From Eunapius fragilis (taxonomy: Eukaryota; Porifera; Demospongiae; Spongillida; Spongillidae), in the NCBI GenBank assembly GCA_963681505.1, contig OY811985.1:5541029-5605028 (forward strand): 64,000 nt of DNA, given 5' to 3'. The notes beneath the pieces were generated by a model. It was not told where the DNA came from. It saw only the letters and a program-made list of their open reading frames with translations, and did no database searches. Positions 20,361-63,828 of the stretch are shown here, piece after piece (position 1 is the stretch's first letter; each line of letters begins with the position of its first letter). Both the position numbers and the translations under genes were made by a program.

Positions 20361-20653
<293 letters not shown>

Positions 20654-20677
20654 TGTACTATTGCACATTGGCAAGTA

Positions 20678-28690: not shown

Positions 28691-28692
28691 GT

Positions 28693-29802: not shown

Positions 29803-29914
29803 TGCCATCCCGGGAAGATTGGCGGCCATGTTTTTTGGTGTCAACCTGTAACAGAACTGGACACCAAAAAACATGGCCGTCGATCTTCCCGGGATGACAC
29901 TGCATCCTCTCTAT
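29803..29914. repeat. Near-perfect hairpin of about 112 bp
   Basis: GAGGATGCAGTGCCATCCCG with GGAAGATTGGCGGCCATGTT is mirrored by AACATGGCCGTCGATCTTCC and CGGGATGACACTGCATCCTC around a loop of about 20 bases. Confidence 0.9.
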
Positions 29915-30054
29915 TGCATGGCCGAAATACTTTTCAAAACTATCCTGTAATTCCTAATAGGTAGTGATCGGCATGCGCGATAGCGTAGCCTGCGTAGGTG
30001 GTGTTCGGCCGGTACCCTATGTGTTATTTTTTATAGGGAATGTAGTTACATTAT

Positions 30055-30478: not shown

Positions 30479-30739
30479 CACAGCAAACAGGAATGATAAT
30501 TATATAAACATACCTGATTCCAAGAGATCGCCAGCCCTCACTAGCTCTATACTAATACCGCTTCGTTCATTCAAAAACGTGCTCCGTACGAGGGAAAACA
30601 ACTGTTTTATCCAATTAAGCGGATTTCTGGTATAGTCGCCAGTGCGGTTGGTCTTTCGCCACGTATGGTTGCCACCGTACCCCCTGTATTTCGTTGTTAC
30701 GTAGGCGACTATACCTGACGCTACCCTAACTGATTGTCG

Positions 30740-32090
30740 TATTAAACGTACAGCATATCAAGCCAGTCATCTATCACTTATAACACATACCAGGACATGT
30801 ATGAACTTGAGTCTTTCACTCCCTTCAAAATTGTATGAACAAATTTATTATTTTCAAACCTTGTTATATTCAGTATAAATTTTTTGAATAGGAATGGCTC
30901 AACTTCTGGGTGGCTACCATTTCAAGAAAGTTCAAATATTGAGGGACCAAGAGCTAGGCAGGGGGTCCTATGGAATGGTGTGCAAGGCCCTGTGTGATGA
31001 ACTGCTGTGTGCTGCCAAGCTCCTTCACCCTGTACTGGTCAGTGAACGGTACAACCAGAAGTTCCACCAGGAGTGTATGGTGATGAGTGCCCTGAAGCAT
31101 CCAAACATCATACAATACCTTGGCATCCACAGTGATGGACCAAGCTGTCAGATCCTTCTCATGGAGCTGATGGAGCAGAGCCTCACCACTTTCTTGGAGA
31201 AGTCCACTCCTCCCCTTCCCTTCCACACCCAGGTCAACCTCTGCCATGACATATGTCTGGCCTTAGCCTATCTCCATTCTAATGACATCATTCACCGTGA
31301 CCTCTCTAGCAACAATGTTCTCCTAACTGGAGACAAGAGGGCAAAGGTCACTGACTTTGGCATGTTCAAATTGATGGATGATAAGCACCTCTCCACTCTC
31401 ACAAGTGCTCCTGGATGTCCTTTTTATATGTCACCAGAGGCCCTCCAGCACACACCAAAATACTCAAACAAATTGGACATATTTTCTTTTGGAGTATTGG
31501 TCATACAAATACTCACTTGCAAGTTTCCATCTCCAGGATCTCCACGAAAAAAGATAGTTGATCAGAGATATCCAGTACCGATTGAAGTACCAGTGCTGGA
31601 GACAGAACGTCGAAAGGCTGACATAGGCCAGATTGACCCTGCCCATCCATTGCTAAAGCATGCCCTTGTATGTCTGAGCTACAAGGAACAGGATCGGCCA
31701 ACTGCTCAGGATATGTGCCACTACATGTTGGAATTGCAGAGGAGTGATCACTATGTGAGTGTGAAGTCTGCTGCAGAAGAAACATTGGAAAGGCTTCAGA
31801 GCCAACTGACGGACATAGAAAATGAGATTGAAAAAAGGTCTGAAGTAATCACCAAACAGGATGAAAGGATCTCTAAACAGAACGAAGAGATTGACAGCAT
31901 GAGAAAATTATTAAGCAGTTATGAAGAGTTTGCAGAAATAGAGTTGTAAGTCTTTATATATTATCCTTAGCTGATGTGCAATGTAGTTCTTTACTGTAAG
32001 TTATAACAACTCGTAAATTCACTCTAACTAACACGTGAGATTAATAATTTACTTCAGTGGCAAAGAACATAATTTGTTTTTGCCACAGCT
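30740..32090 (+). repeat. Right arm of the inverted kinase duplication
   Basis: Reverse complement of 23,935-25,287, including the same upstream sequence (GTATTAAACGTACAGCATAT) and the same sequence after the donor. Similarity fades just before TGCCACAGCTGACATG near 32,085. Confidence 0.9.
30894..31949 (+). CDS. TKL/RIPK-like protein kinase with coiled coil, copy 2; probable first coding exon of a kinase-DGK fusion
   Basis: A 351-residue open frame with the same catalytic set as copy 1 (LGRGSYGMV, Lys42, HRDLSSNN, DFG, SPE, DRP). The start ATG is preceded by TTTTTTGAATAG, so a non-coding upstream exon is possible. Differences from copy 1 are confined to residues 286-325: for example TDIENEIEKR here replaces KVKEDELNKK, with R286H, K296E, N323D and M325R. 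The reading frame stops at TAA (31,947-31,949), but that stop lies inside a consensus donor TT|GTAAGT; splicing at 31,945 leaves phase 2. The next acceptors at 32,892 or 34,238 start in phase 2 and continue into DGK-C, giving kinase, linker, C1, lipid kinase and ankyrin. Intron retention would give the 351-residue kinase alone. Confidence 0.85.
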   Translation: MAQLLGGYHFKKVQILRDQELGRGSYGMVCKALCDELLCAAKLLHPVLVSERYNQKFHQECMVMSALKHPNIIQYLGIHSDGPSCQILLMELMEQSLTTFLEKSTPPLPFHTQVNLCHDICLALAYLHSNDIIHRDLSSNNVLLTGDKRAKVTDFGMFKLMDDKHLSTLTSAPGCPFYMSPEALQHTPKYSNKLDIFSFGVLVIQILTCKFPSPGSPRKKIVDQRYPVPIEVPVLETERRKADIGQIDPAHPLLKHALVCLSYKEQDRPTAQDMCHYMLELQRSDHYVSVKSAAEETLERLQSQLTDIENEIEKRSEVITKQDERISKQNEEIDSMRKLLSSYEEFAEIEL

Positions 32091-32891
32091 GACATGTTCA
32101 AGATCAAATTTTTGGTTCACAATGTATTCATTTCATTGGCTTGAATAATTTGAAAGGTTTATTAACATAATTTCTAACCGGTGTTATCTATTACTAATGC
32201 TATATATCTACATGTATGTACTTAAATCTTGGTAGTTGAAGAGATTCTAAAAATTTATATTATTTTGATTTGATTTTAATTAATAAATTATTTATTTAAT
32301 ACAAATTAACTACTGATAAAGTTACAAATCATTTGGTTATAACTTGCACAGCAATTTGAGAATGTCCTGGTCACCCATAGTTGTAAACCACTGTGCATAC
32401 CACTCCATTTCTATTTGCAAAAATGTAATTTGGTGTCTTGCACAAGTGGGGTACCGACATTAGGTGGTCCAGTACTTCAATGGGCTCCATGCGGCCACCA
32501 CATCTTCAGGTAGGAACGTTCAAATAGCTTCAAATTCAGTATGTACGTAGAAGGGTCCTACACTATTGATTTCTTCTATTAAATTTTACTTCACCGTTAC
32601 GGAGATGTAGCTGTGCAAAGTGCGTCTACGGTTTCCCACTCGATTCGCGCCAATGAATTAGGCACTTGCCTCCCATACATTGAATGTCTAAGGCGGAGAC
32701 GTGGGCGTGTACATGTGCATGCATCGAACGTGTGTGAGTGTGTGTGGCTGTTAGGATGTTATGAAACATACGGATATTCTTCTGCTTAGGAGGGTGTGTC
32801 TGTATATATATGTTTGTGTGTGTGTATGTGTGTGTGGTTGAATTCCCGTTTTCTTTTATACCTCCTCCCCACCTTTTCTGTTTACTTCCAG

Positions 32892-33092
32892 CACCACTAC
32901 TCCAGCCCACCCCAAGGGCCTTCCCCTCTTCTCCTCCTCCCAGCCACACAAGGCTCCAGTGAAGCTGGTACTACGTGAACCCACCATCCCATTGGCTGCC
33001 CCTCCTGCCATTACCCCAAGGAACCAATGCAACTCCGATTCTGATACGTTGGATGTAACAGAGGCGATAGGAATGTTGGAATCACGGAAGAG
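32892..33092 (+). other. Duplicate linker exon, first copy (201 bp, phase 2-2)
   Basis: This acceptor-to-donor segment and 34,238-34,438 are near-identical 201-bp exons ([20 protein letters not shown] in both). Both begin after TTCCAG, end AAGAG|GCAAGT (GC donor) and start and finish in phase 2, so using either one or both keeps the frame. They differ near the end: [14 protein letters not shown] here, [14 protein letters not shown] in the second. Upstream intron sequence (GATATTCTTCTGCTTAGG) is also duplicated. Confidence 0.8.
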
Positions 33093-33927
33093 GCAAGTGC
33101 TTTAATCTATAGTGATGATGATTTTGACAGGTTGACCTGTCAATTACACATTTAGAGTCACTATAGGGCTTTTACACTTCTCATTCAAAGTTTAAGTTAC
33201 ATTGTTGATGACTGTTTTAACACGGAGCCTACTAAGCTACTTACATTCAACTCCTACCTAATGTTGTGTTTCAACTGACTTCAACACTCCACTTAGAATA
33301 ACTAACCCATGTGGGTATTGTAAAGAACCGTTGATTGGTGGGAAAAAATGGCTCATGTTTAGATAAAAGTATCTCCTTAACCATTAATGCTTTGCGTATC
33401 ATTTTACTACTTAAAAAGAAAGAAATGGTACTCCAACGTGATTTCAATAACAGCTTCGGAAGCAATTAATTTGTACAAGATGCACATGAGCGCATCACTT
33501 TTTATGGGGACTTATACAGAAGCTTAGTATATTATGGAACAAGATACACTAGTGTTCCTTTGCTGCTGGTAAAAGTTAAGTCCCTACCACACCTCGTTAG
33601 GTCATTTTTAACATTCAGTCAAAGTTCGTACATAATCATAAGCAGATATGTATATGTGTATATGTGTATATGAGTATGGGTGTGTGTATATGTAGATGTG
33701 TGCTGTGATTATGTACACAGTGGTTGTCAACAGAACAGAACCTCATACCATGCAGAGAGGATAAAGGCACCATTCAACTCTGTACTTAAGTAGAGGCTCA
33801 CATCTTCAAATTAGCCTTACTTGAGTGGATTAAAGCCTTTTTGAATGATCGCACACAATATATGTACATAAATTGAATACATGTACCTCAAAGATCTACT
33901 GTACCTCAGGGATCTGATTAGGTCTGA

Positions 33928-33993
<66 letters not shown>

Positions 33994-36900
33994 ACCAGAC
34001 CTTTCTACTTGACATATTTGTATGGTGGACATGTATGTGTACACGCAGTCTGTGTGTGTGTGTTATAATACTAGGATGTTATGAATATGTACAGAACATA
34101 CACAGGATATTCTTCTGCTTAGGAGTATGTGCTTGTGTGCGTATTTTCGTGTATGGAACAAGAGAAATGAACGCTGTTACTTCGAATTCCCTAAAAACCA
34201 CTGCCCCTTCCTCCTTCCCACCCCATCTGACTTCCAGCACCACTACTCCAGCCCACCCCAAGGGCCTTCCCCTCTTCTCCTCCTCCCAGCCACACAAGGC
34301 TCCAGTGAAGCTGGTACTACGTGAACCCACCATCCCATTGGCTGCCCCTCCTGCCACTACCCCAAGGAACCAATGCAACTCTGATTCTGAGATGTTGGAT
34401 ATAACAGAGGTGATAGGAATGTTGGAATCACGGAAGAGGCAAGTGCTTTGTGTTGTGTGTGTATGTCTGTATATGTGTGTGCGTGTGTGTGTAAGTGCGT
34501 GTTTGTATGTGTGCATGTGTGTATGTGTGTGCGTGTGTGTGTGTATGTGCGTGTGTGTATGTGTGTGTGTGTGTGCGTGTGTGTGCGTGCGTGTGGTCAC
34601 ATGTTGGCATTGGGCATGGTTAGGGCATGTGTGTTACATACCAGAATTTATATTGGGTGTGTCGAGGGTGTGTGGTGGGGGATGTGTATATGTGTAAGAC
34701 CTGTGTGTGCTGATAACGTACAATGCATGTAGGCGTATGTGTGGGTGTGGTTAGGATGTTTGTATGATGGGTACGTGTGTGGGTGAGCAGTACTTGTGCA
34801 GGTGGGGTGTGAGTGTTTGAGCGTGCTTGTATGGTTGCATGTGTGATGTTTGTGTGGATGTGTAATGTGTACTTAAGTTGTGGGCGTGTGTTGACTTTTG
34901 GCTTCCTTGTCCAAGGGCATGTGCCAAGTGTGTGCATGTCACATGCACTGCGACGCCTTTTGATTACCTGTAGTATACGTACGTGTGAGAGGGGCCCATT
35001 TGGGTGTGGTAGGGTTTTAAACACAACACGTTTGCAGCACTGGAATGAGTGAATCTGTGTGGTATGTGCAGAACGTAATAGTGTACATGTTGCTTAATCA
35101 GTAGTCAGGTGGTGCTGGACTTTTCAGGTGGTGCTGGACTTTTCAGGTGGTGCTGGACTTTTCAATCAGTAGTCAGGTGGTGCTGGACTTTTCAATCAGT
35201 AGTCAGGTGGTGCTGGCCTTTTCAATCAGTAGTCAGGTGGTGCTGGACTTTTCAATCAGTAGTCCAGGTGGTGCTGGACTTTCAATCAGTAATGTATGAT
35301 AACCACATCAATTTTGGCACAAGTGGAGTACTTATATGTAGCTCAGGAACCAATAGACCTCGAAGGCAGCTCTAATTTGTTAGTTTTGGAGGGGGGGGGT
35401 AAAGCGATAAAGGCTAAGCAGCTCTGCGCGCCTATTGTGTTGTATGAGTCCACAAACCCATCACACCGTAGGGTTTAGGGTCAGTAAAACAAAGGATGGG
35501 GCTACAGTGGTGTCATCTGTGCCTTCCCAGTGTACGTAACTTCTCCCCTTGTAAAGTTACAACACTTTATAGTGACCTTCACTCTTGAGGAGTAGCAATA
35601 TTCAGTTATCAGCCATATTCTGTTATCTTCTAGCTTCTTCCCTATCTTCTCCACAGTAATGAGTAACACTGCTTCCTCTAATGCAGTCTCTTCTGACCCT
35701 GAGTCAATGAGTGGACCTATCCCTTGCCCTGCATATTCTTGCAAAGTGGCCAAGGACTTTACATTTAGCACATCTTTTCCCATACGCTGGGCACTGTCTC
35801 GTCTGTAGTGAAATAACCCCTGAACCTTGGGCTTCCACAATGGTAGCACAAGTGTTCAGAAAATCTTTGCTGAAATTTACATCGCTTGGCTCAATCCTAA
35901 AGCAGGCAAGTGAAAAATATCTACCATCATAAAATATATTTGAAGTGAGTTCCACGTACTTCATATTTATTGAGCCGATGGATTTTTTTAACAGAATGTT
36001 ATGCCTACCAAAGCCAGAATGTTAATGATGGTCATCATGGCTTCGAGGCAATTAATCCTCTGGCTTTCACTCATACATGCTGCTGTGATTCTCAATGTGG
36101 CTATGGAATCATTGGAGGAAGAGCTTGCTCCAGTCCTGATGCTAATTCCAGATTTATCTGTGCTATAATTACACCTTTACCATTCTCACTAGTGAAATCA
36201 TCCTTGAGACGGCAATGGGGGAATATGATGCAGCTCGCAATTAAGTGTGCTGCAACATCACTAGCCACATGTAGTCCAGTACTGCATTGGTTGACTATCC
36301 CATCATCATCCCATATATCATTCTTAGGCACCCTCTTGGAGCCTTGATCAATGTATAAAACCCCCAAATGCGGCCCCTAATACGAACTGATCTCTCTTTG
36401 TAAGGCACCTATCTTTGGGGTACTCTTTCATGATCTCCCAATAAGTTTTACAGACATATTGAAGTTTCCCATTACCGTCACCTTCCCTGTCCAGGGAACT
36501 TCTCTTTTAAATTTTAGGGCCTTGTTGTGTAGCAGCACCAGGCTTAATAAATAAGTTAATCCGACCATTAGTTGGATCTACAGTATAAGATTCCATTTCT
36601 TAGCATCTTGTGTGGATTCATACACAGTGCTAAATTGTCCAATCTCTTTTTAAAAAGCTCAAACAGAAGTCAAGCATTTTTTGAGCTCTTTCAACACCAC
36701 CTTTGTCTGAAACGGTGACAACTTGTTTAGAATGCAAAGTGTCTCAGGCTTGTCCAAAGAAGCTCTTACAGAGGGTGCCCCCTAATGAATATCATGGGGC
36801 TCCCCCTTTCTTTTTTCTTCCTGTTTTACTCCTTGTTCAAATATTTCAAACAACTGTTCTGGGATGGTGTTCCCAGCAATGGAAATACCATTCAATGTAA

Positions 36901-48900: not shown

Positions 48901-50109
48901 ACTTCTAATCCAACATCAGCTTATAGTATTACCTTGATGTTACGTTGGGCTAACGTAATTTGTAAACCCGCTTTCAGTGCTAGGATGTGGTCTCAATGTG
49001 CAATGGCATCAGTCTATTATGGCATCACACGTTAATTGATTGTAACCACATTTACGCATCTATAAGTAATAGGTGTTTAGAACAAACAACTCTATGGCAG
49101 GAGCTGTTCTGATAAGGTGTCAAATTGAAAGTAACATTGTGCAATAAGTTGACCATCTGTGTATGTACAAATGCATCACAAGACATCAATTGTCATCAAC
49201 ATTTAGAGTAGTATACGATCCTTGATTTGTCCTTGAGTACTAGTACCTGAATCACGCACATACACACATACACACACAACACACACGCACATGTGATACA
49301 CCCATCTTCTATGCACACCTACATGACACGTGCCCACACCCATAAGGAGCTGGTGGCATATAGCTGCTCATGGTGTGGAGACTCATATCACATGGCCTGC
49401 TTCAAGGAGGATTTTCGACAGTTTCCCTGTCACCTTGGACCCCTTCGACGTAGCATCGTTCCACCATCTTGGATTGTCCGAACTCCAGTAGTGGAGAGTA
49501 CACAGGTACGTGACTGGTACAATGCAAAGCTACATGTAGAGTTTATGAAGTTACTGAACATGCATAAAGAGCCCCTGCCTCTCCCTCCCTGATGACAGGG
49601 CAAGTTATTAACACAATCACTTCATAACTGTTAGCTTTAAAGATATCTACATTTCAGTATATACCTTGCAGCAGGGGATGCACCCAAAAACACTGAAATG
49701 TGAATATCACCAATCCTGATACACTGGTGATTCTAGATGCAACTTGCAGTAATTCACATGCCTTTTTATCAACCGCACAACTATGTTGCAGTCTCCAAGT
49801 TGATTGCAGGGACTGTTTCATTTACAAAGGGATTAATGTGTGTGTATACTATCAAGCAGCTACAATTATCAATAATCAGTACCATGAATGAGGTAATCGC
49901 ATAACTTGAGTGATCAAATTAATATAAGGCATCATCATTGATTGCTGGTTGGCAGCAGCTAGCATTGAGATGTATGGTTAAAAAGATAGATAGTCCAATT
50001 ACCAGTGTGTAATAGTCATATTGCAGAGACATATCGGTCTACGAGAATATGTATTTAATCTTGAGCAGAAAATTAGGTCCCTTTCACAATAGCCAATAGC
50101 AATCCTATG

Positions 50110-50180
<71 letters not shown>

Positions 50181-52171
50181 TGTAGACAGGTCCCTTCCTG
50201 AAGCCAAATGAGTTAATTTCCTGTTAAAATGGCAAACCCCCAGGGCTCTGCTAGAGCAAAAGAAGAAGAGGAACTAATATGCATATTTAAGGCCTATGCA
50301 CTTAGTATATGTAACTCAGACAACGCCATGAAGGTATATAGTTCAGACAACGCCATGAAGGTATGTAGCTCATACAACGCCATGAAGGTATGTAGCTCAG
50401 ACAACGCCATGAAGGTATGTAGCTCAGACAACGCCATGAAGGTATGTAGCTCAGACAACGCCATGAAGGTATGTAGCTCAGACAACGCCATGAAGGTATG
50501 TAGCTCAGACAACGCCATGAAGGTATGTAGCTCAGACAACGCCATGAAGGTATGTAGCTCAGACAACGCCATGAAGGTATGTAGCTCAGACAACGCCATG
50601 AAGGTATGTAGCTCAGACAACGCCATGAAGGTATGTAGCTCAGACAACGCCATGAAGGTATGTAGCTCAGACAACGCCATGAAGGTATGTAGCTCAGACA
50701 ACGCCATGAAGGTATGTAGCTCAGACAACGCCATGAAGGTATGTAGCTCAGACAACGCCATGAAGGTATGTAGCTCAGACAACGCCATGAAGGTATGTAG
50801 CTCAGACAACACCATGAAGGTATGTAGCTCAGACAACGCCATGGAGGTGTAGTACATATATCTTCACAGTGCAATTGATTCTATTGATGAGAAGTAGAAA
50901 AATCTGCCGTTGTATAGAAAAGGTTTAGATCAAGGATGATGCAACTTCCTTTTGAAGACACACATTGTAGTTAGCTTCTACATGTAGCTGTTTCACACTA
51001 CACCAAATGTGCTGTTTTGCACTGCTCACACATTACACCATCACACACACCAAGCACACAAGTTATATACACGGCATTTTTGTACTGTAAAGGCGATCAT
51101 AAACTAGGCAACATGTTGCATGCAACACAATGAATTTTCAAGTAAAAATCAGTAAACTTATGTTTTACTGAAAATATAATTGGATTCATTAAGTTGCATG
51201 CAACGTTGTTGCCTAGTGTATGGTCGCCTTAAGATCAGGGTGGTCGCACGTGTGTGCGTGGCGTGCATGTGTGCAAAGGAAGAGAATTAGCATCCCAGGA
51301 AGGAGAATAAAGTGTGTGTCAATCATTACCTTCATTCTCTGTTATTGGGCGTTGCTATTTACTTCTAAAGGCACAAGCCAAAGATCCCGAACCTTCCACC
51401 ACACCAGCCTCTGACAACACAAGCAGCTTTGATATGTCCTCTCCTCTGAAGCCCTCCTCACTGCCCTCTGCTAGGGCCAGGACAGAGGGCTGTATTCACA
51501 AGAGGAAGAAGAGTAGCAGGAGAGCACGTTGCAAGAAGTCCATAAAGGATGACGACAGAGTATCTAAGTCCTTCATTGTGAGTTTGGCCTGAAATTTTGA
51601 ATCATGTAATCAATGTTTGTAAATTAAACCCACTTCTCATTAGCTCTGATAACAACATGTAAATGCTTGTACATGTATTGGGCATAAGAGTGAGTGATGT
51701 GATAATCATTTTTGAGGCTCCAAGATTTGTTTTAATTTATAATGTACTCATGTCTACATTATTACAAGTACACGTAGAACATGTATTGAACTCTTTTGGA
51801 ACTCTACACTGTTGGCCAGCTATACTTATATTTAGTACTGGAACACCTGGATAATCCAAGTAATATAAATTTAGAGCACAGGAGAGCGTACATGTATGAT
51901 CTCACATCTCCCACGTGTCACACTAGCATGCACAAAGTACATGTCTCGCTTTGACACCCCCCCCCCTCCCCCCCCCAGGTGAGACCTGTCATTCAAGATG
52001 ACATACAACCTCTCCTTGTGTTTGTGAACCCAAAGAGCGGGGTTAACCAAGGATTTAGAGTGATGCAGACATTTCAATCACTGCTTAATCCAAGACAGGT
52101 GTTTGATCTGACTAAGGGAGGACCAATGTTTGGGTGAGTAGCATGAATGTGTGTGTGTGCGTGCATGCGTG

Positions 52172-52203
<32 letters not shown>

Positions 52204-55049
52204 ATGCGGGTGTGTGGTGTGTGTGCGAGTGTGTGTGGTGTGTGTGTGTGACGTTACACTATGCATTGTATAATAAATGAAGTACACATATGTGCATGTG
52301 CTTATGTACATACATGCATTGCTCTCTGTCATGGTACATGCATTGCCCTGTGCCATACCTCCATTACAGATTGAAGATGTTCCTCCATGTTCCCAACCTT
52401 CGTATACTGGTGTGTGGAGGAGATGGAACAGTTGGATGGGTCCTCTCAGTACTGGATGAGGTCCTGGACCAGACTACCACACCTCGGGTTGGTAATGCAA
52501 GGGTCAGACCTCCAGTGGCAGTACTACCTCTAGGAACAGGCAATGATCTGGCCAGAGTGCTTGGATGGGGAGGGGTAAGGATGTTTGGATGGGAGGAGGG
52601 GTAAGGATGTTTGGATGGGGAGGAGGGAGGGGTAAGGATGTTTGGATGGGGAGGAGGGAGGGGTAAGGATGTTTGGATGGGGAGGAGGGAGGGGTAAGGA
52701 TGTTTGGATGGGGAGGAGGGAGGGGTAAGGATGTTTGGATGGGGAGGAGGGTAAGGATGTTAGGGTGCAGAGGTACAGTGGCCCAGTCGCGCTCTTGGGG
52801 TATTCCATGCCAAGCTTACGCACGTTTCTGCATGTCTGTCTCAAAACTCGTTTTGTTTTATGGGCAAGGGGGGTCATGAGAGATAGTTAATACAAAAGAT
52901 CACGTCTTTTGGAGGTCAGCCATTGTGGAGATATTGTAGGATATCTTTGTGACCTTTTTCTTGCACACTCTGCGTTTGATGCTGTGTATTTGGTGTATCC
53001 TTCAACTCACATCATTACATGTAAGCTACACCATGATGTTATTACGAATGATGACTTTATTAAGTGTTTATGGTAAATAATTTCGGCCTTTAGTCTTCTG
53101 CATAATTAGATAACAACTGATCTGCCATACCAAATTTAACCAAAAAAAGTATTTTATATAGAGAGTTTTAATGCAAAATTAGGAGTTGGGCTGACATCAG
53201 GTAGATGGTGTAAAAAATGGGAACATACTGACTTTACATATTTCACCTTTCATACATGGGCTTATGTTTTGATTGCCTATCACCTAACATAACCCTGTGC
53301 CTGAGGGTTGGTGTGAAACGGAGTGCAATGAAGACAGGTATAAAACATTTACACAGCTATTTGACATTACTTACAACTTCCTTCCCTTTCCCTCATCTCC
53401 TTTTACACACACAGGTAAATGATCAGGTGAACTGTAACTAACTTGTGATCCTCAAGTGCTTGTGTTGCACTAATCCATTTCATTGTCAGAAAGTGTGTAC
53501 GTTCGACCACTGTAGGTTATAGGCTCACCAAAAGTCTTTGTCACTTATGTGACCTGTTATTATGTCTGCTTTCTGTGGATAGTGCTAGGCCTACATGGAT
53601 GCAGGAATAGTAGTGAGGCTTCCTGCGTTTCAGGATCAATTCCTGTGCATAGGCAACCCATCTATATATAGTTGATGTGATGTGACACCATAACTTGCAC
53701 AGCTTTGGTGCGAAAAACTGTATTCTCGCACTTGCATCAACAGGCACAAAGCCGTGCAACGGTTGCATACTAGCTGTGGTTTTAGCTTTGAATTCATCTT
53801 GAAACAGCTTGGCAGAAAGTGAATTGTCCAAGGGGTGTTGTGATTTTGTTGCTATATACACTCTGTAAACTGCAAACTGGCCCTGGCTGCCATGTCTTTT
53901 AACAACAACAGCTACACCATCACAGGGACCCCTGTCATGACTGGTTGCAAAAAAGGGTATGTGACTGCTGTATAAGACGGAGCATGGTGGTTGCCTATGC
54001 AACAGGAACTGATCCTGTGCAACACAAGCACTTGAGGATCACAAGTTAGTTACAGTGCACCTGATCACTTATCTGTGTGCGTAAAAGGAGATGAGGGAAA
54101 GGGAAGGAAGTTGTAATGATAAATTTATAATCTGAGTTGATGGATGCACCAAATACACTGCATCAAACACAGAGCATGCAAGAAAAAGGTCACAAAGATA
54201 TCCTACAATATCACCACAATGGCTGACCTCCAAGACGTGACCTTTTGTATTCAACTATCTCTCCCCTGCCCATAAAACAAAACAAGTTTGGAAGAAATTT
54301 GAGACAGACGTGCAGAAACTTGCATACACTTGGCATGGAATACCTCTCTTAACCAATGAGCTTCAAGTGCTTATTGCTTGTGCTCAAGACGCTACTTCTG
54401 TTTTGCTCAAAGTAATGATGCAATTAGCATTTTGACTGTAAGATTTTCCCTATGCCTCAACAGCAATTAGCTCTAGAGCTCAAATTTATTATCCTGGGCC
54501 AGTTTTATCTTGAGCCAGACTAAACATTAACTTGAAAAATGTCTTCATGTAAATTCCATGCCTGTATACCAAATACCTGAGAGTAACTAGGAGCTGTTTT
54601 TAAAAAATTAATATCGTCAAGGAAATGGATAAAAATGGAACCACATGTAACAAGAGGAGTGACCCTGACAGAGTATACATTACATGTAGTGTGCATGTAT
54701 TACTGTTGTATCTGTACTTGCTTTTTGCTTATAGAGTTATAGTGATGAACCTCTGGAAAGAATTTTGTATCAAGTAGAGACTGGATCCATTGTAAATTTT
54801 GACAGATGGCAGCTGAACATATTTTGTAATGATGATGCTCCTAGAATGGTATGTTTGGGATTTGGGTGCACAGCACATTATAGTGCGACTGGCTTGTATG
54901 GTACATTGATCAGTAGTAAGTACAGTGTATGGGGAAGATGAGGAAGTTAGGGATGGTCACACCCTGAGTTTAATTTTTTAGGCCTAATGAATTGTCTGAT
55001 ATGTGTATTTGTATGTATTATGTGTGTGGGCATGTGTGTGTGTGTGCGT

Positions 55050-55080
<31 letters not shown>

Positions 55081-57500
55081 CTTGGACGGATGGATCCATG
55101 GATTATGTATGCATGCATACATATGAGTTAATTTATATGGTGGGTTGCTACTGTATATAGCCAGTAGAACAAGGAGCTGTGAACGACATTCCACTTCATG
55201 TGGTCAACAACTACTTCAGCATTGGAGCTGATGCATCAGTGGCCTTGGAGTTCAACCTGGAAAGAGGTACATGCCTACACTGTAGATAACAGACCCCCTT
55301 GGGGTACATGCCTATAACAGACCCTTCCCCCCCCCCCCGGGGTACATGCCTATACTGTGGGTACATGCCTACCACTGTAGATAACAGACCCCCTTGGGGC
55401 ACATGCCTATAACAGACCCCCTTGGGGCACATGCCTATACTATAGATAACACACCTGGGTATAACATGCGTGATTGCCATAACCCAAGATCAGCCTTCCC
55501 TGCATCATAGCAGACTACAGTGATGTATACAAATGTAGAACTGAGCTCCAACATACTTTATACCACTAAACCACGCCACCTTTTTATTTCCACAGAGGCT
55601 AATCCAGAGAGGTTCAATAGCAGGCTTAAGAACAAGCTGTTCTACGCAACGGTATGCTGAACTATGTGTGCCTACTATGTCCTAAGGTTGCCTTGGAGGA
55701 CAGGGTTCTTAATGATGGCTGTGTGTCACATTGATATGTTCTCTTCTTCCCAGCTGGGTGGCAAAAGCATTATGCAGAGGAAGTTTGCTAATTTGACTGA
55801 CCACATATCACTTACGGTAGGTTGTTGGTCTTTGGTACGTGTATATATTTTAATGCAGTATGAGATAGGGGCGGAGAGAGGGTGTTAAGAATATAGTATT
55901 TTACTGGAGAATATTTTTGAAAGCTATGTTAGAAAAGCAGTTGTGGTCCAAGTATGAATACTTACGTGTACTTATCAGTGATATCTGGTCATAACTTCAT
56001 GCCCTTATTATGATACCTGTTAAAACAGTATGATAGAGAATGTTGCCGCCAGTTGTAGTCCATACATTGAATGTACGCATGACCGTGCTGTACCTGTTGT
56101 TGGCTAGCAGTCCAAGCTTTGGACGCACATAGGCTGGAGAATTGGGGGAGAGCTATCAAAGGGGCACCTGCTGGGAAACAAGCAACTCCTTATAGGCCTA
56201 GCCAGCCGCAAGAAGGTTGAATCACAATAAACAACTGATAGACCTGGGCACAGGGCGATGTTGAATCCTTTACGTACTGGAAGGACCAAGGACCAGGGGG
56301 CTGGAAGGACCAAGGACCAAGGACCAGGGGGCTCGAAGGATCAGGGGGCTCGAAGGATCAGGGGGCTGGAAGGTCTGGGGGCTGGAAGGACCAGGGGGGC
56401 TGGAAGGACCAGGGGGGCTGGAAGGACCAGGGGGGCTGGAAGGACCAGGGGGGCTGGAAGGACCAGGGGGGCTGGAAGGACCAGAGGGGCTGGAAGGACC
56501 AGAGGGGCTGGAAGGACCAGGGGGGCTGGAAGGACCAGGGGGGCTGGAAGGACCAGGGGGTTGGAAGGACCAGGGGGCTCGAAGGACCAGGGGGCTCGAA
56601 GGATCAGGGGGCTGGAAGGACCAGGGAGATTGTGCCTTTGGGAAATGATACTCTGGATGTCAAAATCAATAGTTAGGGATGGCAGGGTGAGGTGGTAGGG
56701 TCCTCAATCACTACTGAGGTGGTAGGGTCCTTAGTGGCAGGGAAACAGGAACTGGTCCATCCAGATGCTTAGCTTACAGAAGATTCCAAGTATCAGGAGC
56801 TAAACCTGATAATGTTAATGCCTCACAAGCCTTTGAGGGGGGGGGGGGGGGGGGGGGGGAGGGGGCGAAAGGCCTTCTCTTGCAAACACTATTATTCAGA
56901 AGACATTTAGTTGTTGCCATTAGTAGGGGACTTCAAGTTGCAACTTAGCAGTGATGCGTGGTAAGTTAAGCAAGTGCCATGCTATGTGGACGCTGCATCG
57001 AAAGTAAGCAACATTGAGTAACATAGGCATCCCCATAAAGAGGTGGGGGAGCCGCCCTTCCAATGAGGTAATTCATTACACCTTCAGAGTTGATGGAAAT
57101 GAGCATCAACAGCTCATTTGCACTAAGCCAGTGCTGCCAGTTTTAACCGGACCATTTTTTTCCTGATGTGATCAATTTAATGTGGTTGGCCTTTTGGGAC
57201 CAGCAAATGGTTAGAATGTGTTTACCAGTCAAGCGTATTGAGTTGCGTTTTCCAAATCTTTATGACTTTCCTTCGCTAGCACTTATATACTAGGACACAG
57301 AAGTATATAGCCTGACCGTACTGTGGTTAATTATTTTACCATAATAGATGAGTCTGCTTCCTATACTTAATTACTTAGTAAGATAATAGGTGTTCAAGGC
57401 CAGTTCAAGCCTCTCTGCCTCTCCCCCTATGTTGGGTAACACACACACACACACACACACACACATGCCCACACACACACACACAACACACACACACATG

Positions 57501-57561
<61 letters not shown>

Positions 57562-60500
57562 AGCTTTTAAATACATGGGATAATTGGTCAATGCTGAGTT
57601 TTTGTGAAGCAACCAATTGCAAACAAGAAAAGCTGGGTTGGAACACTAGGCAGGAATATGACATAGCGTGGGCAGATTTCATCCAAGGTAAGCAATTGAA
57701 CTGGATTGACAACTGGAAAGATATTGGTATCTGGATTCTGGCTGAGATCGGAACATCTGCAATACACTTAAACTGTTGGAGATGGCTGTGACTTTGACAC
57801 AAGTTGATTTCAAAAGGTGCTAATAAAAAAAAAACCTATTAAACCAAGTTTGAGTACTTCCAGACACATGAGTGACACTTGGAACAGCCTTCAACCACTG
57901 TCTGAGTGGTATTGAATGTGTGCTTTAAATGTAGTGCCAAGTAAGAATGGCCACTCATAAAATGTTATCCATAATGATTATGAATCCAAAATGAAACTAC
58001 TTATGCATAACAAACATGTTTGCTTGTATAGTGTCGTAACCAAAACAGTTGTCATCCCCTAGGCTGATGGTGAAGACCTAACAGAGAGGATTCGTGAGCT
58101 GAAGTCAGAGACCATCCTCTTCCTCAACATACCATCCTATGGATCTGGCACTGACCCCTGGGGAAGTCCCTCTAGCCGATCTGCCCACGTGAGTGCTACC
58201 CCAGTGTATCTGTTGTGGCTATGTCCTCCTCCTTGTTAACTTGACACTTGCATTGTGTCTGTAATACACTATTATGAGCATATGTTTTTGTGCATCTGTT
58301 GTCCTAGGGTCCTCAAAGATACGATGATGGGAGGATTGAGATCATCGGGATGTCTGCATTAACCCAAGTGAGATGTTATGTCATCCTTCTCTGTGTCTCT
58401 GGGGTATACAGGGTGCCACAATCAACTACAATAGTATCATTATGAATTCATGTATTAACTTGAAAATGGTGGTCATTCGATCTTGATTCCGTTGTTTAAA
58501 TTATATAATAACTTTTATCCCCATTAGAACTATGTGTTTGTACTACCCTACAAGGTGAATTATTAGCAAAGAGTAAACTATGGCAGCTGCTGATCTTTAT
58601 AATGAAGCGTTAATATTTAACCAGCTAGGTTAAATATTGAATTTTTATTGGGTACATTAAGGTCATGTTGTAAAGATGGCATTAATGCAAAAATTCCCAA
58701 ATGGTGTTTAGCCACCCATGTCGTGTCAGATAGCCCTTCCATTTCACTTTTTTTGGGTGGCCTCCCTCTAGATAAGTATTCCTCATCTGTGGGCATGTCA
58801 ACCCCTGCCAAAAATTAAAAGTCATTCTTAAATCAATGATGGATAATATGCCATGTACAGCAATAGCAACTATCTTAAATTCTGTAGTATAAGTAATAAT
58901 TTTAGTCGAATTTCCCTGATTGGCACACTGTGTACAGGTACAGTGTATATGTGCTTGATTACACTTGACACTCAGGTATATTGTGTTACATTTGCACACA
59001 TGTAGCTATCTACATGTGTGCATGTACTGATGTTGCAAAGCCCTGTCCCCGTATGAGGAACTCAATACTAGTGTTTTTACATGCATGCCATACCTTCTGC
59101 AGCCCAGACTGGCCCATGGAGAGAGGATAGCACAGTGTACTCACGTCAAACTGGTAACACAGAAATGTATTCCAGTCCAAGTTGATGGAGGTAAGGTCGG
59201 CCATTGAAAGATGGTTATTTCAGTGTGCTCGAAGCAAAAGCAATATCCACAAGGCTAAATTATCAGAAGATGGTATTGATATATGTACTTACATACTGAA
59301 AGCATCCTGATTCTTGCTGTTTTCAAAACAGCCATTTTGTAATTTTTGCTAGTTAACACAAATGACGACTCAGAAATGCAGTAGTGTAGCTCTTTGCTAT
59401 TACATTGCACACTAAAAACTGTGTTCTTGTTTGGGTCCGTTACTTGTTGCACCTCCTGATCAGACGTGGTTGCTACTAACTGTAGTGCATTACTGCAGTA
59501 CATTTTCCCCTCCAATGAAAGGATCCACTTACTTTCGTTGGCTAAGTGGGTATAACTTTAGCTGTATGCACCCACCCACTACAGAGGCATGGAAACTGAA
59601 TCCATCAATTACCGAACTGATCCCAAAGAACACAGTGTCTATGCTCAAGAAGAACAGTCAGAACATGCAAGATATTCCAGCTCCACTTAAAGGGTGAGCT
59701 GAAGCAACTTAGTGACATTTATATGGCTTTATACATAAGATCCATAACATATTTATAGGGAATGGTACACTGATACATCAATCTTTTGTTTACCTGGTTT
59801 GTATTTCCTCTCAAACTGCACTGATGAAGTTTCCTGATCAGTCAACTTTGAGTGGCATCATTGATCTTGAATCAGTGCTGTTTAAGATACCCTAGTACAG
59901 AAGCACCATAAAATTGGATGCTGAACAGAATTAAGTGCTTCTGTGAAGTACACGTATATGTTCTTGTATTTCACACTAAGGGGAACCTGGCCTTCCATTC
60001 TTGTTACATGTTCATGTAGTAGTGTATCATGCAGTATGCACGTGCAATTCCATGTACATGTACATGTATGTTGAAGTAGACCCCTATTGATGTCTTGCCT
60101 TTGGTTTCGTTAGGATTCCTTCTGACTACACCATCAAGCTGTCTGTCTCTGCAGTTTCTTTGGAGGCATACACCAGACTCGAATGCAACCTCCGAGCAGT
60201 TTCATGGGAAGGCAAGTACACACAGGGACGGTTAGCTATGGGAAGGCAAGTACACACAGGGACAGTTAGCTGTGGGAAGGCAAGTACACACAGGGACAGT
60301 TAGCTGTGGGAAGGCAAGTACACACAGGGACAGTTAGCTATGGGAAGGCAAGTACACACAGGGACAGTTAGCTGTGGGAAGGCAAGTACACACAGGGACA
60401 GTTAGCTATGGGAAGGCAAGTACACACAGGGACAGTTAGCTATGGGAAGGCAAGCACACACAGGGACAGTAGCTATGGGAATGCAAGTACACACAGGGAC

Positions 60501-61618
60501 AGTTAGCTATGGGAAGGCAAGTACACACAGGGACAGTGGCTATGGGAAGGCAAGTACACACAGGGACAGTTAGCTATGGGAAGGCAAGTACACACAGGGA
60601 CAGTTAGCTATGGGAAGGCAAGTACACACAGGGACAGTTAGCTATGGGAAGGCAAGTACACACAGGGACAGTAGCTATGGGAAGGCAAGTACACACAGGG
60701 ACAGTTAGCTGTGGGAAGGCAAGTACACACAGGGACAGTAGGCAAGTACACACAGGGACAGTTAGCTGTGGGAAGGCAAGTACACACAGGGACAGTTAGC
60801 TGTGGGAAGGCAAGTACACACAGGGACAGTAGGCAAGTACACACAGGGACAGTTAGCTGTGGGAAGGCAAATGGGAAGACAAGTACACACAAGGACAGTG
60901 CTAATTATTGTATCTGATTTTTATGGTAATGCACTTGTATGGTCACATTTATCCAATGTACAGTGTGTACATGCTGTGTAGTAGTACAGGTGTACTCTTC
61001 TGAGTACAAGGTGTGCCTATATGTGTGGGGTGCCATTTTGAGCTGTATGTTTACATGATCATGTACATGTGTACATTGAAACCTCTTGTGAGTGTGCAAG
61101 TACATGTGTTGAGCCTCACAAAAAATGTGAAAGCTGTGTTTCACAGTTGAAACTTCACCAGGAGCATCATACCTTTGCTGTTTAGCCCATCTGCAGCTGA
61201 ACCTTGTCACATGATGTGTGCTGTGGGAAAGGTCTCATTACTTCAATACAGGTGTAGGAGGATAGCAGGGTTTGAATGGGCACTAGCAATTCAACATACA
61301 TGTACATGTACACGTGCCGCTACTTCCATTGCAGCAACTGAGTTAGGATTTGTTGAAACAACTCCAAGTGACACCCTGAGCAACCTAAGACCGAAGATCA
61401 ACCAGCTCTTTGCCAACCGAGGGGACAATGGCAGAAAGCCTCCTGAAGACAGCTGGAGGTTTCTGAATGGTAAATATGCACCCTTGGACTGTAGTGGAAG
61501 AGTGCAGGGTAGTTGAGGAGGGAGGACTGGAAGAGTATTGAGGAGTATTGAGGATTCCACTGTTTCTGTCTACTACTACCCAACCCCGGCCTGACCAGGT
61601 CCCATAGCTATGTGTGTG

Positions 61619-61651
<33 letters not shown>

Positions 61652-63828
61652 CTGTGTATGTGTGTGTATGTGTGTGTGCACGTGTGTGGGCATGTGTGTA
61701 GGTGTGTGTGCTGAGGACCAACTCATTCCATCGTCTTGGCAGAACACTAGTTATATGTAACGTGCACATGTTCAACTGTTAAAGTGAATTTCTTCAGTGG
61801 TTTCATTTTATCACAGCAGTTTGAGGAACTGAGTGTGCGGTAGTGTAGTTGTCGTTATTACAATACGTTTTACCCCTCTTTCATTTGATTGGACGTCTGC
61901 AAATGGCTCAAGTGTTTTGGGGCGTTCACCATATTTGTGCTTGATGTTCACTTGTGCAGTATTCCATGGCCTTCAAGTTAACCTTGTTCCTCCAGTGGTG
62001 GTATCGGAAGGGAGAGAAGAGGATAGACTGTACCAGGTTATGTCTGATGACGAAACGATTGTGGGGGATATGCCACTGGATGGAATTGTCATCCTTGAAA
62101 TGCCTGAGTCCAATGCAGCAGCAAATCTAACAAAGCAGGACTCATACACCCAGCTTGCGTCATCCATGCGAGAGAGCAAAACCCTTCCCTCATATAGTAC
62201 AGATAGACATCAAGACCCTTGCAGTCCCCAGTCCATGTCCTCAAAGTAAGCCCCGCCTCCTCTGTACGTCTGCAGAAGAAAAAAAAATTTAAGAATAAGA
62301 GAAGTTCTTGGTGTGCGTTATGCATGTATGTTGCTTCTATTGGTGAGTGGAAAGGTGGCCTTTGTACATGTGTACACATGTGTACATGTATTCACATGTG
62401 TACATGTGTACACATATGTGTACATGTACATGTACATGTATACATGTGCATGTGTACACATGTACATGTACATGTACATGTACATGTGTACACATATACA
62501 TGTACATGTACATATACATGAACATGTGTACACATACGTGTACATGCACATATGTACATGTACATCCCAGGCCACTCTCTCCAACACTCGAAATGCTATG
62601 CAATGGGTAGGGACTTCCATATTGGGAAAACTCTGTAAATAAAGAAATTAGAGCAAAAAAAGCTAGTGGAATCTCCAATTGTGTCCACATGTGTTTTGAC
62701 TTATGTTGGTCAGCAAAGGCAAAGGTATCAATAAAATGGAATATTGACGTAGTGGTTTAAAATTTTAAACACATGACAATTGAGAATATCAAAACAAAGT
62801 TTGCAATATTTAATAAGAGATTTGGAGCTGAGCTGTAAATCTTTCTTTCTTTCCAGGCTGAATACTACAACTCATCCCTGTAACAGAAGTGTTTGCAACC
62901 ATTTTTTGGGGTTATAGATGTATGTGCAGTGAAAAGGGACCTAACTTGGTATTATAAACATGAAGGAGCGTAAAAGTTGACACATGCATTTGAAATGTAC
63001 GCTTAATTAAATATTCAGGCCACTGTAACTCCATGATGAACAGATCAATTTCCAGTGTGTAAGAAAGAAGATGTAGAGGACATAGGTATCTCTTGGAACA
63101 TAAAATATGCATTAGACCCTATCGCTGCAAACGACCCCATATGTAAACTTTGACCATGCAGTATTCACTGTTTCTTATAGATGATGCACATGTGTGTATA
63201 TATATACTTACTAGTGTACAATATTTTTCATCTACAGATCCAGTAGTTTGTCTGCTACTGTAAGTAATGTTTTCCTCCAAAATGCACTGGTCAACGCTAT
63301 CAAAACAGGATCACTAGAAAAGGTATGCACCATTCATGTACTGGCAGAAAACAAGTAAACTTTGACCTCTTATTTATTTGTGCACTATATATTAAAGCTC
63401 ATTAAGTATTTTCCCAGAGCAGCAAAATCACAGTGCTTAAAAAAAGTTGCTTGTCCCCACTAATTGTGTAGGTTAAAGATCTTCATGCACAAGGAGCTAA
63501 GCTTGCTGCTGTGGATGATAAAGGGTGGACACCTCTTCACGTCGCTGCACGTCATGGCCAAGAGGACATTGTGGAGTTTATTGTCCATAACAGTAATGAG
63601 CAACACATAACATCATGTCATATGTTGTACATGACATTATTGAGAAGTGTACCCCCAAGCTTAGGCTAATGGATTTGTGTCTTGTGGGATATAAATATGA
63701 TGGAATTAAAGTCACTTACTTCCTACTGTAGTGCATGCACAAAGCAGCAGCATGGTCATGTTACATTCTTTCCCTTTCTTTCATTTTATAGTCCCTCGAG
63801 ATGTCCTAGATATTCAAGAACCTGAAAA
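32892..63828 (+). CDS. DGKZ-like: Diacylglycerol kinase zeta/iota type, copy C: linker, two C1, catalytic, accessory and ankyrin exons (3' end beyond window)
   Basis: Exons in agreeing phase: 32,892-33,092 and/or 34,238-34,438, 44,715-44,796, 47,681-47,764, 47,928-47,967, 48,140-48,252, 48,323-48,415, 49,347-49,505, 51,371-51,577, 51,979-52,133, 52,370-52,574, 54,735-54,848, 55,161-55,266, 55,596-55,651, 55,754-55,816, 58,063-58,188, 58,308-58,367, 59,103-59,190, 59,585-59,693, 60,114-60,211, 61,335-61,469, 61,960-62,245, 63,238-63,322, 63,472-63,592, 63,792-63,828. Domains: C1a (HLWFEV ... [12 protein letters not shown]), C1b ([16 protein letters not shown] ... [12 protein letters not shown]), basic MARCKS-like stretch ([15 protein letters not shown]), catalytic domain ([40 protein letters not shown]), accessory domain ([43 protein letters not shown]) and ankyrin repeats. 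It should phosphorylate diacylglycerol. No independent DGK start exon is evident; the first exons join kinase copy 2 in phase. The 49,347 acceptor (TAAG) is weak. Confidence 0.85.
33929..33990. repeat. (CA)n microsatellite in the DGK-C linker intron
   Basis: Pure CA run. The region before it (33,718-33,900) resembles 44,085-44,240 (both with GTGGATTAAAGCCTTTTTGAATGATC), an intron-borne duplicate. Confidence 0.9.
34440..34605. repeat. GT-rich microsatellite starting at the donor of the second linker exon
   Basis: TGTGTG with interspersed GC and TA steps directly after AAGAG|GCAAGT. Cys/Val frames here are artefacts. Confidence 0.85.
35108..35291. repeat. 30-bp minisatellite (GGTGGTGCTGGACTTTTCAA)
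   Basis: Six or seven units of TCAATCAGTAGTCAGGTGGT then GCTGGACTTT, the first units lacking the TCAGTAG part. Intronic in DGK-C; the open frame through it is not a gene. Confidence 0.9.
35500..36370 (-). pseudogene. Degenerate retroelement segment with a zinc knuckle, in a DGK-C intron
   Basis: The minus-strand frame 35,964-35,704 contains [20 protein letters not shown] then CR, the kind of cysteine knuckle found upstream of the protease in Gypsy-type elements. Neighbouring frames 36,367-36,101 and 35,849-35,502 look coding-like but are interrupted. No reverse transcriptase is visible. Confidence 0.5.
37192..37359. mobile_element. MITE with GGGGCCATTCATAAATTACG ends
   Basis: 168-bp foldback: GGGGCCATTCATAAATTACG TCACGC and the inverse GCGTGACGTAATTTATGAAC GGCCCC, flanked by TCA on both sides (3-bp target duplication). 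These ends resemble the widespread ISL2EU/PIF-type MITE termini of invertebrates. Confidence 0.85.
37430..39300 (-). pseudogene. Gypsy-like LTR retrotransposon, internally deleted
   Basis: Read on the minus strand from 39,144: Gag N-terminus with a charged coiled coil ([18 protein letters not shown]), Gag middle ([20 protein letters not shown]) with frame breaks, two CCHC knuckles ([28 protein letters not shown]), a protease-end-like [17 protein letters not shown], and directly the integrase zinc domain ([40 protein letters not shown]). Reverse transcriptase and RNase H are missing between protease and integrase. Terminal direct repeats survive at about 37,437-37,525 and 39,213-39,293 (CAAATTAAATTGTTCTTGGT in both). 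Defective. Confidence 0.8.
39481..40777. mobile_element. CAGGGGCGGCGGAAG element inserted in the 40-bp minisatellite
   Basis: Perfect inverted ends CAGGGGCGGCGGAAG / CTTCCGCCGCCCCTG, flanked on both sides by ATTAG (39,476-39,480 and 40,778-40,782). Inside are a second foldback pair (CTCCCGGGGGTACATTTGTC at 39,651 against its near-complement near 40,020-40,042, with ACATTAGAC/GTCTAATGT outer ends) and a long hairpin at 40,127-40,656. Non-autonomous; no transposase. Confidence 0.85.
40127..40656. repeat. Hairpin whose right arm is expanded into a 42-bp minisatellite
   Basis: GCCTTGGGTTTTTAGGGTGG and ACAAAAACCATCCTG motifs on the left pair with CAGGATGGTTTTTAAGCTAT and CCAAGGC on the right. The right arm repeats TTTTTAAGCTATACCCACCC / TGGACGCCAAATCCCAGGAT about six times while the left arm has one to two units. 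Confidence 0.85.
41061..43580 (-). pseudogene. Decayed transposon-like coding region, minus strand
   Basis: Several minus-strand open stretches (43,284-42,925; 42,934-42,689; 42,622-42,437; 41,845-41,558) look like one decayed long coding region but match nothing I recognise. At about 43,500-43,340 the minus strand reads [20 protein letters not shown], then [16 protein letters not shown], a stop and ICQ, which resembles the end of Gypsy-type Gag proteins. Lies in the 34,439-44,714 DGK-C intron. Confidence 0.45.
43590..43960. repeat. Dispersed repeat, copy of 23,150-23,620 in opposite orientation
   Basis: Contains GGACCAATGGGTGATGCTGG, GACTGGAGTGCTGCACCCAT and GGTTTGGATCGTTCATTGAT, each the approximate complement of sequence in the 23-kb copy. 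Confidence 0.75.
44243..44600. repeat. 27-bp minisatellite (GATCTGATGCACCTCAGGGA CCTAAGG)
   Basis: About 13 units just upstream of the DGK-C exon at 44,715. Each unit is open in both directions ([18 protein letters not shown]) only because 27 is a multiple of three. A related single motif (ctgtacctcagggatctgat) occurs near 33,900 in the duplicated flank. Confidence 0.9.
45495..45896 (+). pseudogene. Basic/acidic 12-residue-repeat ORF remnants, transposon-derived by appearance
   Basis: A start [20 protein letters not shown] is followed by a triplicated 47-bp unit (CCTTCTTCTTTTCGGGATCG, 45,618-45,735) and then about three 36-bp units encoding [14 protein letters not shown], ending DDNSAGI and a stop near 45,896. 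Such charged repeats are common in invertebrate Helitron- and endonuclease-type elements. It is broken by stops between the parts and lies in a DGK-C intron. Confidence 0.4.
46048..46131. repeat. 84-bp hairpin
   Basis: ATAGTCGGGCGGCCCTACTA CC... pairs with ...GGTAGTAGGGCCCGCCCGACTAT nearly to the tip. Related motif gtagggcgtggtccgactac lies near 26,977. Confidence 0.9.
46250..46430. repeat. Imperfect tandem duplication of about 90 bp
   Basis: GCTGACCTTGACCACGTTTG ... ACTATAGTTCCAGCCCT ... AACCCTTGGGTGTACAT occurs twice with small gaps. Intronic. Confidence 0.7.
46862..47071 (+). other. Acidic then proline-rich open stretch, origin unknown
   Basis: In one plus-strand frame: [20 protein letters not shown], then [20 protein letters not shown] and a Pro run, stop after GLHDQNQHG. 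Composition looks like a protein tail. There is no start codon, so it would need splicing; its end does not have an obvious donor. It could be a transposon-protein C-terminus in the DGK-C intron. Confidence 0.3.
47283..47535. mobile_element. Foldback MITE of about 250 bp
   Basis: AAATAAAAACATTCTCTAAT GAAAGAGTTGTTGGTATATAGG pairs with CCTATATACCAACAACTC TCTCATTAGAGAGTGTTTTTATTTT. The centre pairs GAAATAGGCCTATATTTAGC with GCTAAATATAGGCCTATTTC. Lies 146 bp before the first C1 exon. Confidence 0.9.
48779..48975. mobile_element. Foldback MITE of about 200 bp
   Basis: ATTACAATATGACGTTAGCC ... ATGTTGGATTAGAAGT pairs with ACTTCTAATCCAACAT ... GGGCTAACGTAATTTG around 48,860. Intron between the C1b exons. 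Just before it, 48,530-48,770 is a degenerate GGTGTCAGTGTGAGGTATG repeat. Confidence 0.85.
50111..50186. repeat. (GT)n microsatellite
   Basis: Pure GT run of about 75 bp in a DGK-C intron, upstream of a possible optional exon at 50,244. Confidence 0.95.
50244..50333 (+). other. Possible optional DGK-C exon (90 bp, phase 0-0)
   Basis: ACCCCCAG acceptor, 30 open codons ([16 protein letters not shown] then [14 protein letters not shown]), and donor ATGAAG|GTATAT at the first unit of a minisatellite. Its phase fits between the flanking exons 49,347-49,505 and 51,371-51,577 (both phase 0). No homology supports it, so it is only a candidate. Confidence 0.35.
50313..50849. repeat. 27-bp minisatellite, every unit with a splice-donor motif
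   Basis: About 20 near-identical units of CTCAGACAACGCCATGAAGG TATGTAG; each has AAG|GTATGT. The open frames through it (NAMKVCSSD or ALSELHTFM) exist because 27 is divisible by three. Confidence 0.95.
51089..51233. mobile_element. PIF/Harbinger-like MITE sharing its core with the GRWD1 MITE
   Basis: Inverted ends AGGCGATCATAAACTAGGCA AC... / ...CCTAGTGTATGGTCGCCT, flanked by TAA on both sides. The core (TTTTACTGAAAATATAATTG) is the complement of the core at 9510-9535 although the outer ends differ. Confidence 0.85.
52561..52765. repeat. 32-bp intronic minisatellite anchored on the catalytic-exon donor
   Basis: The exon ending at 52,574 reads TTGGATGGGGAGGG|GTAAGG. A unit containing GGATGTTTGGATGGGGAGGA then GGGAGGGGTAAGG follows about six times, each repeating exon tail and donor. 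Confidence 0.9.
52795..54350. mobile_element. 1.5-kb foldback element inside the catalytic-domain intron, with an ORF remnant
   Basis: GGAGGTCAGCCATTGTGG, GATATTGTAGGATATCTTTG and GATCAGGTGAACTGTAACTA on the left are mirrored on the right (TACAATATCACCACAATGGC; TAGTTACAGTGCACCTGATC; TTGGCATGGAATACCTC). The minus strand at 54,002-53,541 is open for 153 residues and contains [20 protein letters not shown], a motif I associate with anonymous transposon-derived invertebrate proteins. Probably a non-autonomous element with a captured fragment. Confidence 0.7.
55266..55455. repeat. Irregular minisatellite anchored on an accessory-domain exon donor
   Basis: Directly after GAAAGAG|GTACAT (exon end 55,266) the sequence GGTACATGCCTATAACAGAC CCCCTTGG recurs about seven times in long and short forms; later units read GGCACATGCC, losing the GT. 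Confidence 0.85.
56262..56630. repeat. 18-19-bp minisatellite (GGCTGGAAGGACCAGGGG)
   Basis: About 20 units in the 55,817-58,062 intron. The Arg/Gly/Ala frame (AGRTRG) is an artefact. A G-run follows at about 56,837-56,858. Confidence 0.9.
57438..57560. repeat. (CA)n microsatellite with CATGCC interruptions
   Basis: Three CA runs separated by ATGCC/ACA interruptions, same DGK-C intron. Confidence 0.9.
60206..60895. repeat. 34-bp intronic minisatellite anchored on a GC splice donor
   Basis: The exon ends TCATGGGAAG|GCAAGT at 60,211. The 34-bp unit GGGAAGGCAAGTACACACAG plus GGACAGTTAGCTAT repeats about 20 times (donor copies at 60,212, 60,246 and so on), with a few units deleted to about 22 bp. 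Every unit keeps the GC donor. Confidence 0.95.
61611..61700. repeat. GT-rich microsatellite
   Basis: TGTGTG runs with occasional T and A changes in the intron after exon 61,335-61,469. Confidence 0.85.
62358..62570. repeat. Self-complementary TGTACA/CATGTA tract
   Basis: About 200 bp made of GTACATGTGTACACATGTAC-like words, each its own reverse complement, in the intron after exon 61,960-62,245. Cys/Val/His/Met frames are artefacts. Confidence 0.9.

Follow-up and report, generated by a model that had tools for sequence, protein, structure and literature searches.

Does a protein kinase gene of the sponge Eunapius fragilis splice onward into the diacylglycerol kinase (DGK) gene lying downstream of it, or are these two genes that merely stand next to each other? 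The question is raised by a stretch of 64,000 nucleotides (C15:5541029-5605028, here called the window), in which a preliminary description proposed one polypeptide of about 1,360 residues combining a TKL protein kinase with a DGK, an architecture that is not known from any described protein. If the two are fused, a protein kinase and a terminator of lipid signals would share one chain; if they are separate, a repeated kinase cassette has landed beside a gene with splice-compatible ends, and this would be raw material for new multidomain proteins. We compared the locus with the whole genome (219 Mb in 24 contigs), reading open frames, stops, copy number, arrangement and phases directly from the DNA, and we consider that it probably holds two separate neighbouring genes amplified together in one segmental duplication, which is likelier than a fusion. 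The features discussed below are collected in Table 1.

Table 1. Features of the window, in window coordinates.
Feature	Position	Strand	Remarks
3' remnant of a further, truncated DGK copy (C type, a third DGK type)	17158-20677	-	downstream of inverted kinase
Left arm of inverted repeat	23994-25292		98-99% to 30727-32028, two pieces
Second copy of the window kinase, inverted	24073-25128	-	same EIEL-stop and GTAAGT
Right arm of inverted repeat, gapless part	30727-32028		weaker similarity on to about 32090
TKL-type protein kinase gene (by best matches), coiled-coil-like C-terminus	30894-31949	+	complete ORF, 351 residues + TAA
TTGTAAGT, TAA stop that overlaps a perfect donor sequence	31944-31951	+	T/CTGTAAGT in each of the 8 C15 copies
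AG of nearer acceptor-like site	32087-32088	+	143 nt after donor; kept in 7/8 C15 kinase copies
Candidate first coding exon of the DGK itself, from an ATG to a phase-2 donor	32684-32733	+	donor score 5.0; in all four + copies
67-residue DGK N-terminal exon, copy a	32892-33092	+	GC donor
ATG in frame with exon copy b, in its unspliced extension upstream	34167-34169	+	candidate start
67-residue DGK N-terminal exon, copy b	34238-34438	+	GC donor
23 further DGK exons: C1-like, basic region, catalytic, accessory, first ankyrin part	44715-63828	+	

The kinase gene, its end and its copies

The coding frame of the kinase (30894-31946) gives 351 residues, in which the AAK, HRD and DFG motifs can be recognised by eye, and a Pfam profile search found the kinase domain with an E-value of 6.4e-44 (PF00069, 150.8 bits; PF07714, 148.7 bits). 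Its best relatives among solved structures were one top match labelled EGFR, followed by IRAK4 chains, and by these TK/TKL-type best matches it is classed as a TKL-type protein kinase. It resembles TKL/IRAK-like kinases in its complete kinase domain and differs from them in being short and apparently single-exon, in its coiled-coil-like tail and in belonging to a large family within the same genome. The preliminary description had this frame run into TT|GTAAGT and leave it in phase 2, and so it does; the in-frame TAA at 31947-31949 lies inside this very motif, and, given that it falls within the putative intron, it does not forbid splicing. In the whole window, 37 of 6356 stop triplets (0.6%) lie within GTAAGT and 71 of the same triplets (1.1%) within GTRAGT, and 4 of the 40 ORFs of at least 100 residues end in such an overlap, the two kinase copies being expected among them. 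The overlap is unusual, yet kinase copies that have no DGK share it.

The family was surveyed by a genome search that gave 116 scored matches from 329 first-look candidates, so that the count is a lower bound, and kinase ends were read at 18 of 30 fetched loci (L011-L028). Eight copies with 89-100% identity form four divergent pairs at 5.447-5.635 Mb of C15, and one relative with 80% identity lies on C6. All eight C15 copies are open and finish at EIEL-stop, with the stop inside T/CTGTAAGT, although only the four on the plus strand precede a DGK, the other four being on the minus strand; in the window, only the truncated C-type DGK was found downstream of the inverted kinase. The C6 copy is intact and also carries CTGTAAGT, with one base fewer before it and therefore in another phase, its frame continuing for seven codons to a different stop, and a broken copy on C11 has CTGTAAGT with the same shortening. 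GTAAGT is thus not peculiar to the kinases that precede a DGK, since the minus-strand C15 copies and those of C6 and C11 carry it too. The presence of AATAAA within 900 nt after the kinase stop (three of the four plus-strand copies, one of the four minus-strand copies, not in C6) was uninformative.

The two kinases of the window have the same protein sequence in the kinase domain (dN 0, dS 0.027), and their coils differ (dS 0.137, dN 0.080, from 4.5 and 12.5 changes). Each of the other three C15 pairs shows differences between its two kinase domains (dN 0.009-0.031, on small numbers). Three of the four plus-strand C15 copies share one coil type and the four minus-strand copies share another, so that, judging by sequence, the kinases of the two strands may have different tasks. 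For the divergent pair at 24073-31949, gene conversion in the palindrome would account for identical domains beside distinct coils, a pattern that the other three pairs show more weakly or not at all. Further related kinases form large clusters on C18 (0.04-2.2 Mb) and C3 (4.7-8.7 Mb).

The diacylglycerol kinase and its copies outside the window

The 67-residue exon, which to our knowledge is unlike any recognised in known DGKs, is present in two copies of 201 bp differing at 6 sites. The 24 further exons announced in agreeing phase number 23 after 34,438, and their phases do agree: from 44715 to 63828 they join without a stop, all with AG acceptors and with GT or GC donors, and by eye the gene extends past the end of the window and closes with KERDV-stop less than 1 kb further on. 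On this product, Pfam profiles placed DAGK_cat (88.4 bits, cut-off 23.6), DAGK_acc (151.5 bits, cut-off 27) and Ank_2 (36 bits, cut-off 27.3, with ankyrin continuing by eye in the next 1 kb), so that the catalytic, accessory and ankyrin regions claimed earlier stand, and the C1 region, with C1_1 at 21.2 bits under a cut-off of 26.5, is C1-like. A basic MARCKS-like stretch was seen by eye. The earlier assignment to the zeta/iota type is right, and the enzyme is identified as class IV, sharing with DGK zeta and iota DAGK_cat, DAGK_acc and the ankyrin C-terminus, apparently also a C1-like N-terminus and, by eye, the basic stretch, class IV being taken here as defined in PMC5567653. A search of solved structures by sequence with two pieces of the DGK gave no match at E 0.01. 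The usual PDZ ligand has Ser/Thr at -2, and the C-terminus KERDV differs from DGK zeta and iota in lacking it. As a class IV enzyme, the product would make phosphatidic acid from diacylglycerol, an activity predicted from its domains.

The 67-residue exon lies downstream of each of the four plus-strand kinases (C15:5464217, 5507690, 5573921, which is window 32892-33092, and 5635853) and, in phase, also at C15:4130835. In the genome search, the DGK N-terminus gave 23 matches, all on the plus strand and none on the minus strand, and the catalytic exon has six copies in the 4.15-5.65 Mb stretch of C15, four of them in the array and two outside it. The array itself, at about 5.44-5.65 Mb, consists of four units, each with a kinase pair and a DGK, the unit of the window and its left neighbour being about 66-68 kb apart; a WD40-like fragment at 8739-8999 of the window scored 18.7 bits, under the cut-off. 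Outside the array, the DGK copy at 4.13 Mb matches 24 of the 24 DGK exons of the window, and a further DGK begins near 4.17 Mb, inside the same 80 kb; no kinase match better than E 7.6 was found in that 80 kb, about 20 kb of which lie upstream of the 67-residue exon. On C6, no DGK was found among the 13 catalytic and 11 accessory matches in the genome, best candidates only. Hence, in this genome, the association of kinase and DGK is not kept outside the single duplicated array, the C6 kinase being without a DGK and the DGKs at 4.13 and 4.17 Mb without a kinase.

Between the window DGK and the 4.13 Mb copy, 34, 39 and 50 differences fall at the three codon positions, of about 925 sites each, and since the excess at third positions is modest, constraint on the two is weakly shown by this comparison; the 67-residue exon has a single gap of 9 nt, which keeps the frame. 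We do not count the 4.13 Mb copy as a control of proven integrity: its counterpart of exon 61960-62245 aligns with gaps of 1, 2, 1, 3 and 9 nt, and the protein match there begins only 7 residues in.

The junction and the search for a DGK start

From the kinase stop to the first DGK exon there is only about 0.94 kb, and the acceptors at 32892 and 34238 are both in phase 2, as the preliminary description had them. Joining the kinase to the DGK exons gives 1,358 residues without a stop as far as 63828, so that the long open frame proposed earlier is really there; the step from it to one polypeptide is not supported, given the kinase's own stop in eight of eight copies, the existence of kinase and DGK apart from each other, and a nearer acceptor. 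Agreement of phase is in any case a chance event of one in three. The stretch from kinase stop to first exon can be aligned in all four plus-strand copies, with donor, acceptor and phase kept in 4/4, and this conservation adds little, because the non-coding DNA between looks about equally conserved.

These ends are nevertheless what a real TKL-DGK fusion would use, with transcription starting at the kinase and GTAAGT spliced to 32,892 and/or 34,238. The product would be a bifunctional protein-kinase/DGK polypeptide, now in four gene copies in the array. It would have arisen when one arm of the kinase palindrome was brought, by segmental duplication, in front of a DGK whose native first exon had been lost. 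We regard this as unlikely, even though the compatible donor, acceptor and phase in every plus-strand copy speak for it, as does the overlap of stop and GTAAGT, which a true phase-2 donor would be expected to give and which so few stop triplets of the window show. The four array copies look like one duplicated event, however, and so are not independent evidence for it, and kinase copies that have no DGK also carry the GTAAGT, the one on C6 with a different phase.

Acceptors were scored with a position table trained on the 23 acceptors of the window DGK gene (leave-one-out scores from -1.8 to 11.9), and the nearer acceptor at 32089 obtained 7.0, against 7.1 for 32892 and 3.8 for 34238. Joined to 32089, the donor yields one residue and then a stop (Phe-stop), and the inverted kinase copy has the equivalent acceptor at 140 nt, with a score of 7.4; the one C15 copy without it, L015, has lost this flank in the alignment. 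The kinase donor therefore has a possible partner that does not involve the DGK, and such nearer acceptors, closing the frame, weigh against a fusion. No single acceptor is strong evidence, because 26 sites between 31990 and 34240 reach the threshold of 2.5, some of them scoring above 32089, 32892 and 34238, and acceptor-like AGs occur at 10.45 per kb on the plus strand.

If the DGK is a gene of its own, it must begin somewhere, and the earlier view that it has no separate start has been weakened by two candidates (Table 1), neither of them proven, without being overturned. The ATG at 34167 recurs in array copy 2 and is frame-shifted in the 4.13 Mb copy, and exons running from an ATG to a phase-2 donor number dozens between 2,700 and 32,891, the kinase exon being by far the longest. 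A homology search for a first exon, comparing 44 kb upstream of 33,960 with 20 kb upstream of the 4.13 Mb copy, found only shared repeats, and because of this the array may have lost its native DGK first exon. A motif scan for the conserved stretch preceding C1 in vertebrate DGK zeta and iota gave one match, on the minus strand and broken by stops, and no proven first exon was found in the array or at 4.13 Mb. In that comparison, the match at 32608-32683 has, by eye, the look of a hairpin repeat. No methionine is encoded by the first three DGK exons matched in array copy 4, beginning with the 67-residue exon, so that this copy either is non-functional or depends on a coding exon further upstream. 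Both the lack of a recognisable first exon, with upstream sequences sharing only repeats, and the missing methionine of copy 4 count in favour of a fusion.

Two neighbouring genes, read-through and fusion

We favour two genes on four grounds: the kinase has its own TAA in eight of eight C15 copies, four of which lie on the minus strand, where the DGK N-terminus has no matches; the C6 kinase is intact, with GTAAGT in the other phase and no DGK match on its contig; the 4.13 Mb DGK has its 67-residue exon in phase and no detectable kinase in the roughly 20 kb upstream; and the nearer acceptor at 32,089, which the inverted copy has too, closes the frame. The first of these, the stop kept in all eight copies, also speaks against a fusion. 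Two adjacent genes within a segmental duplication would thus, in our judgement, most likely account for the facts without a new protein. The kinase would be a self-contained TKL-type gene of 351 residues, arranged in divergent pairs within inverted repeats, four pairs on C15, and the DGK would have a 5' end of its own. The GTAAGT would be left unused or be spliced to an acceptor close by, within the 3' end of the kinase gene itself. In the first case the kinase product would finish at EIEL and in the second at the same position, a single residue being altered; these transcript structures are predicted from the arrangement of the sites. The locus also serves as a warning that a stop inside GTAAGT, even when a matching phase follows downstream, is not enough to show a fusion.

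Between two functional genes so close together, with less than a kilobase from the kinase stop to the DGK exon, occasional read-through could also give a chimeric RNA with little or no role as protein. In PMC6764479, human read-through fusions are linked with segmental duplications and reported as enriched in them, although the authors call their own sample small and the human result may not carry over to a sponge; we take this explanation to be more doubtful still than a fusion. Those transcription-derived human fusions likewise involve two adjacent same-strand genes in a segmental duplication, and by this analogy the configuration of the window locus would be a plausible cradle for a fusion. 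Literature searches on sponge DGKs with tyrosine kinase-like proteins, and on a DGK fused with a protein kinase in one chain, found no papers, and in the titles and abstract beginnings of the papers listed by wider searches no such fusion appeared.

Further observations on the kinase family bear on whether these kinases can acquire other domains. A fusion is favoured by the divergence of the coils of the window pair at identical kinase domains, and also by relatives that run in one open frame into other domains: L022 (C1:18563475-18564485, minus strand) continues into a PARP catalytic domain (30.9 bits, cut-off 26.7) and L027 (C9:507368-508399, minus strand) into Kelch repeats (Kelch_1, 41.4 bits, cut-off 20.1). 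Relatives on C13, in addition, appear by eye to splice on from phase-2 donors, which also speaks for a fusion. At one C13 locus, L028 (C13:7102359-7103265, minus strand), the kinase exon ends at AA|GTGAGT in phase 2, and downstream of it there are ATG16-like pieces (20.5 bits, under the cut-off of 33.7) and a WD40 repeat (45.1 bits, cut-off 27), so that this locus is perhaps a kinase-ATG16-like gene.
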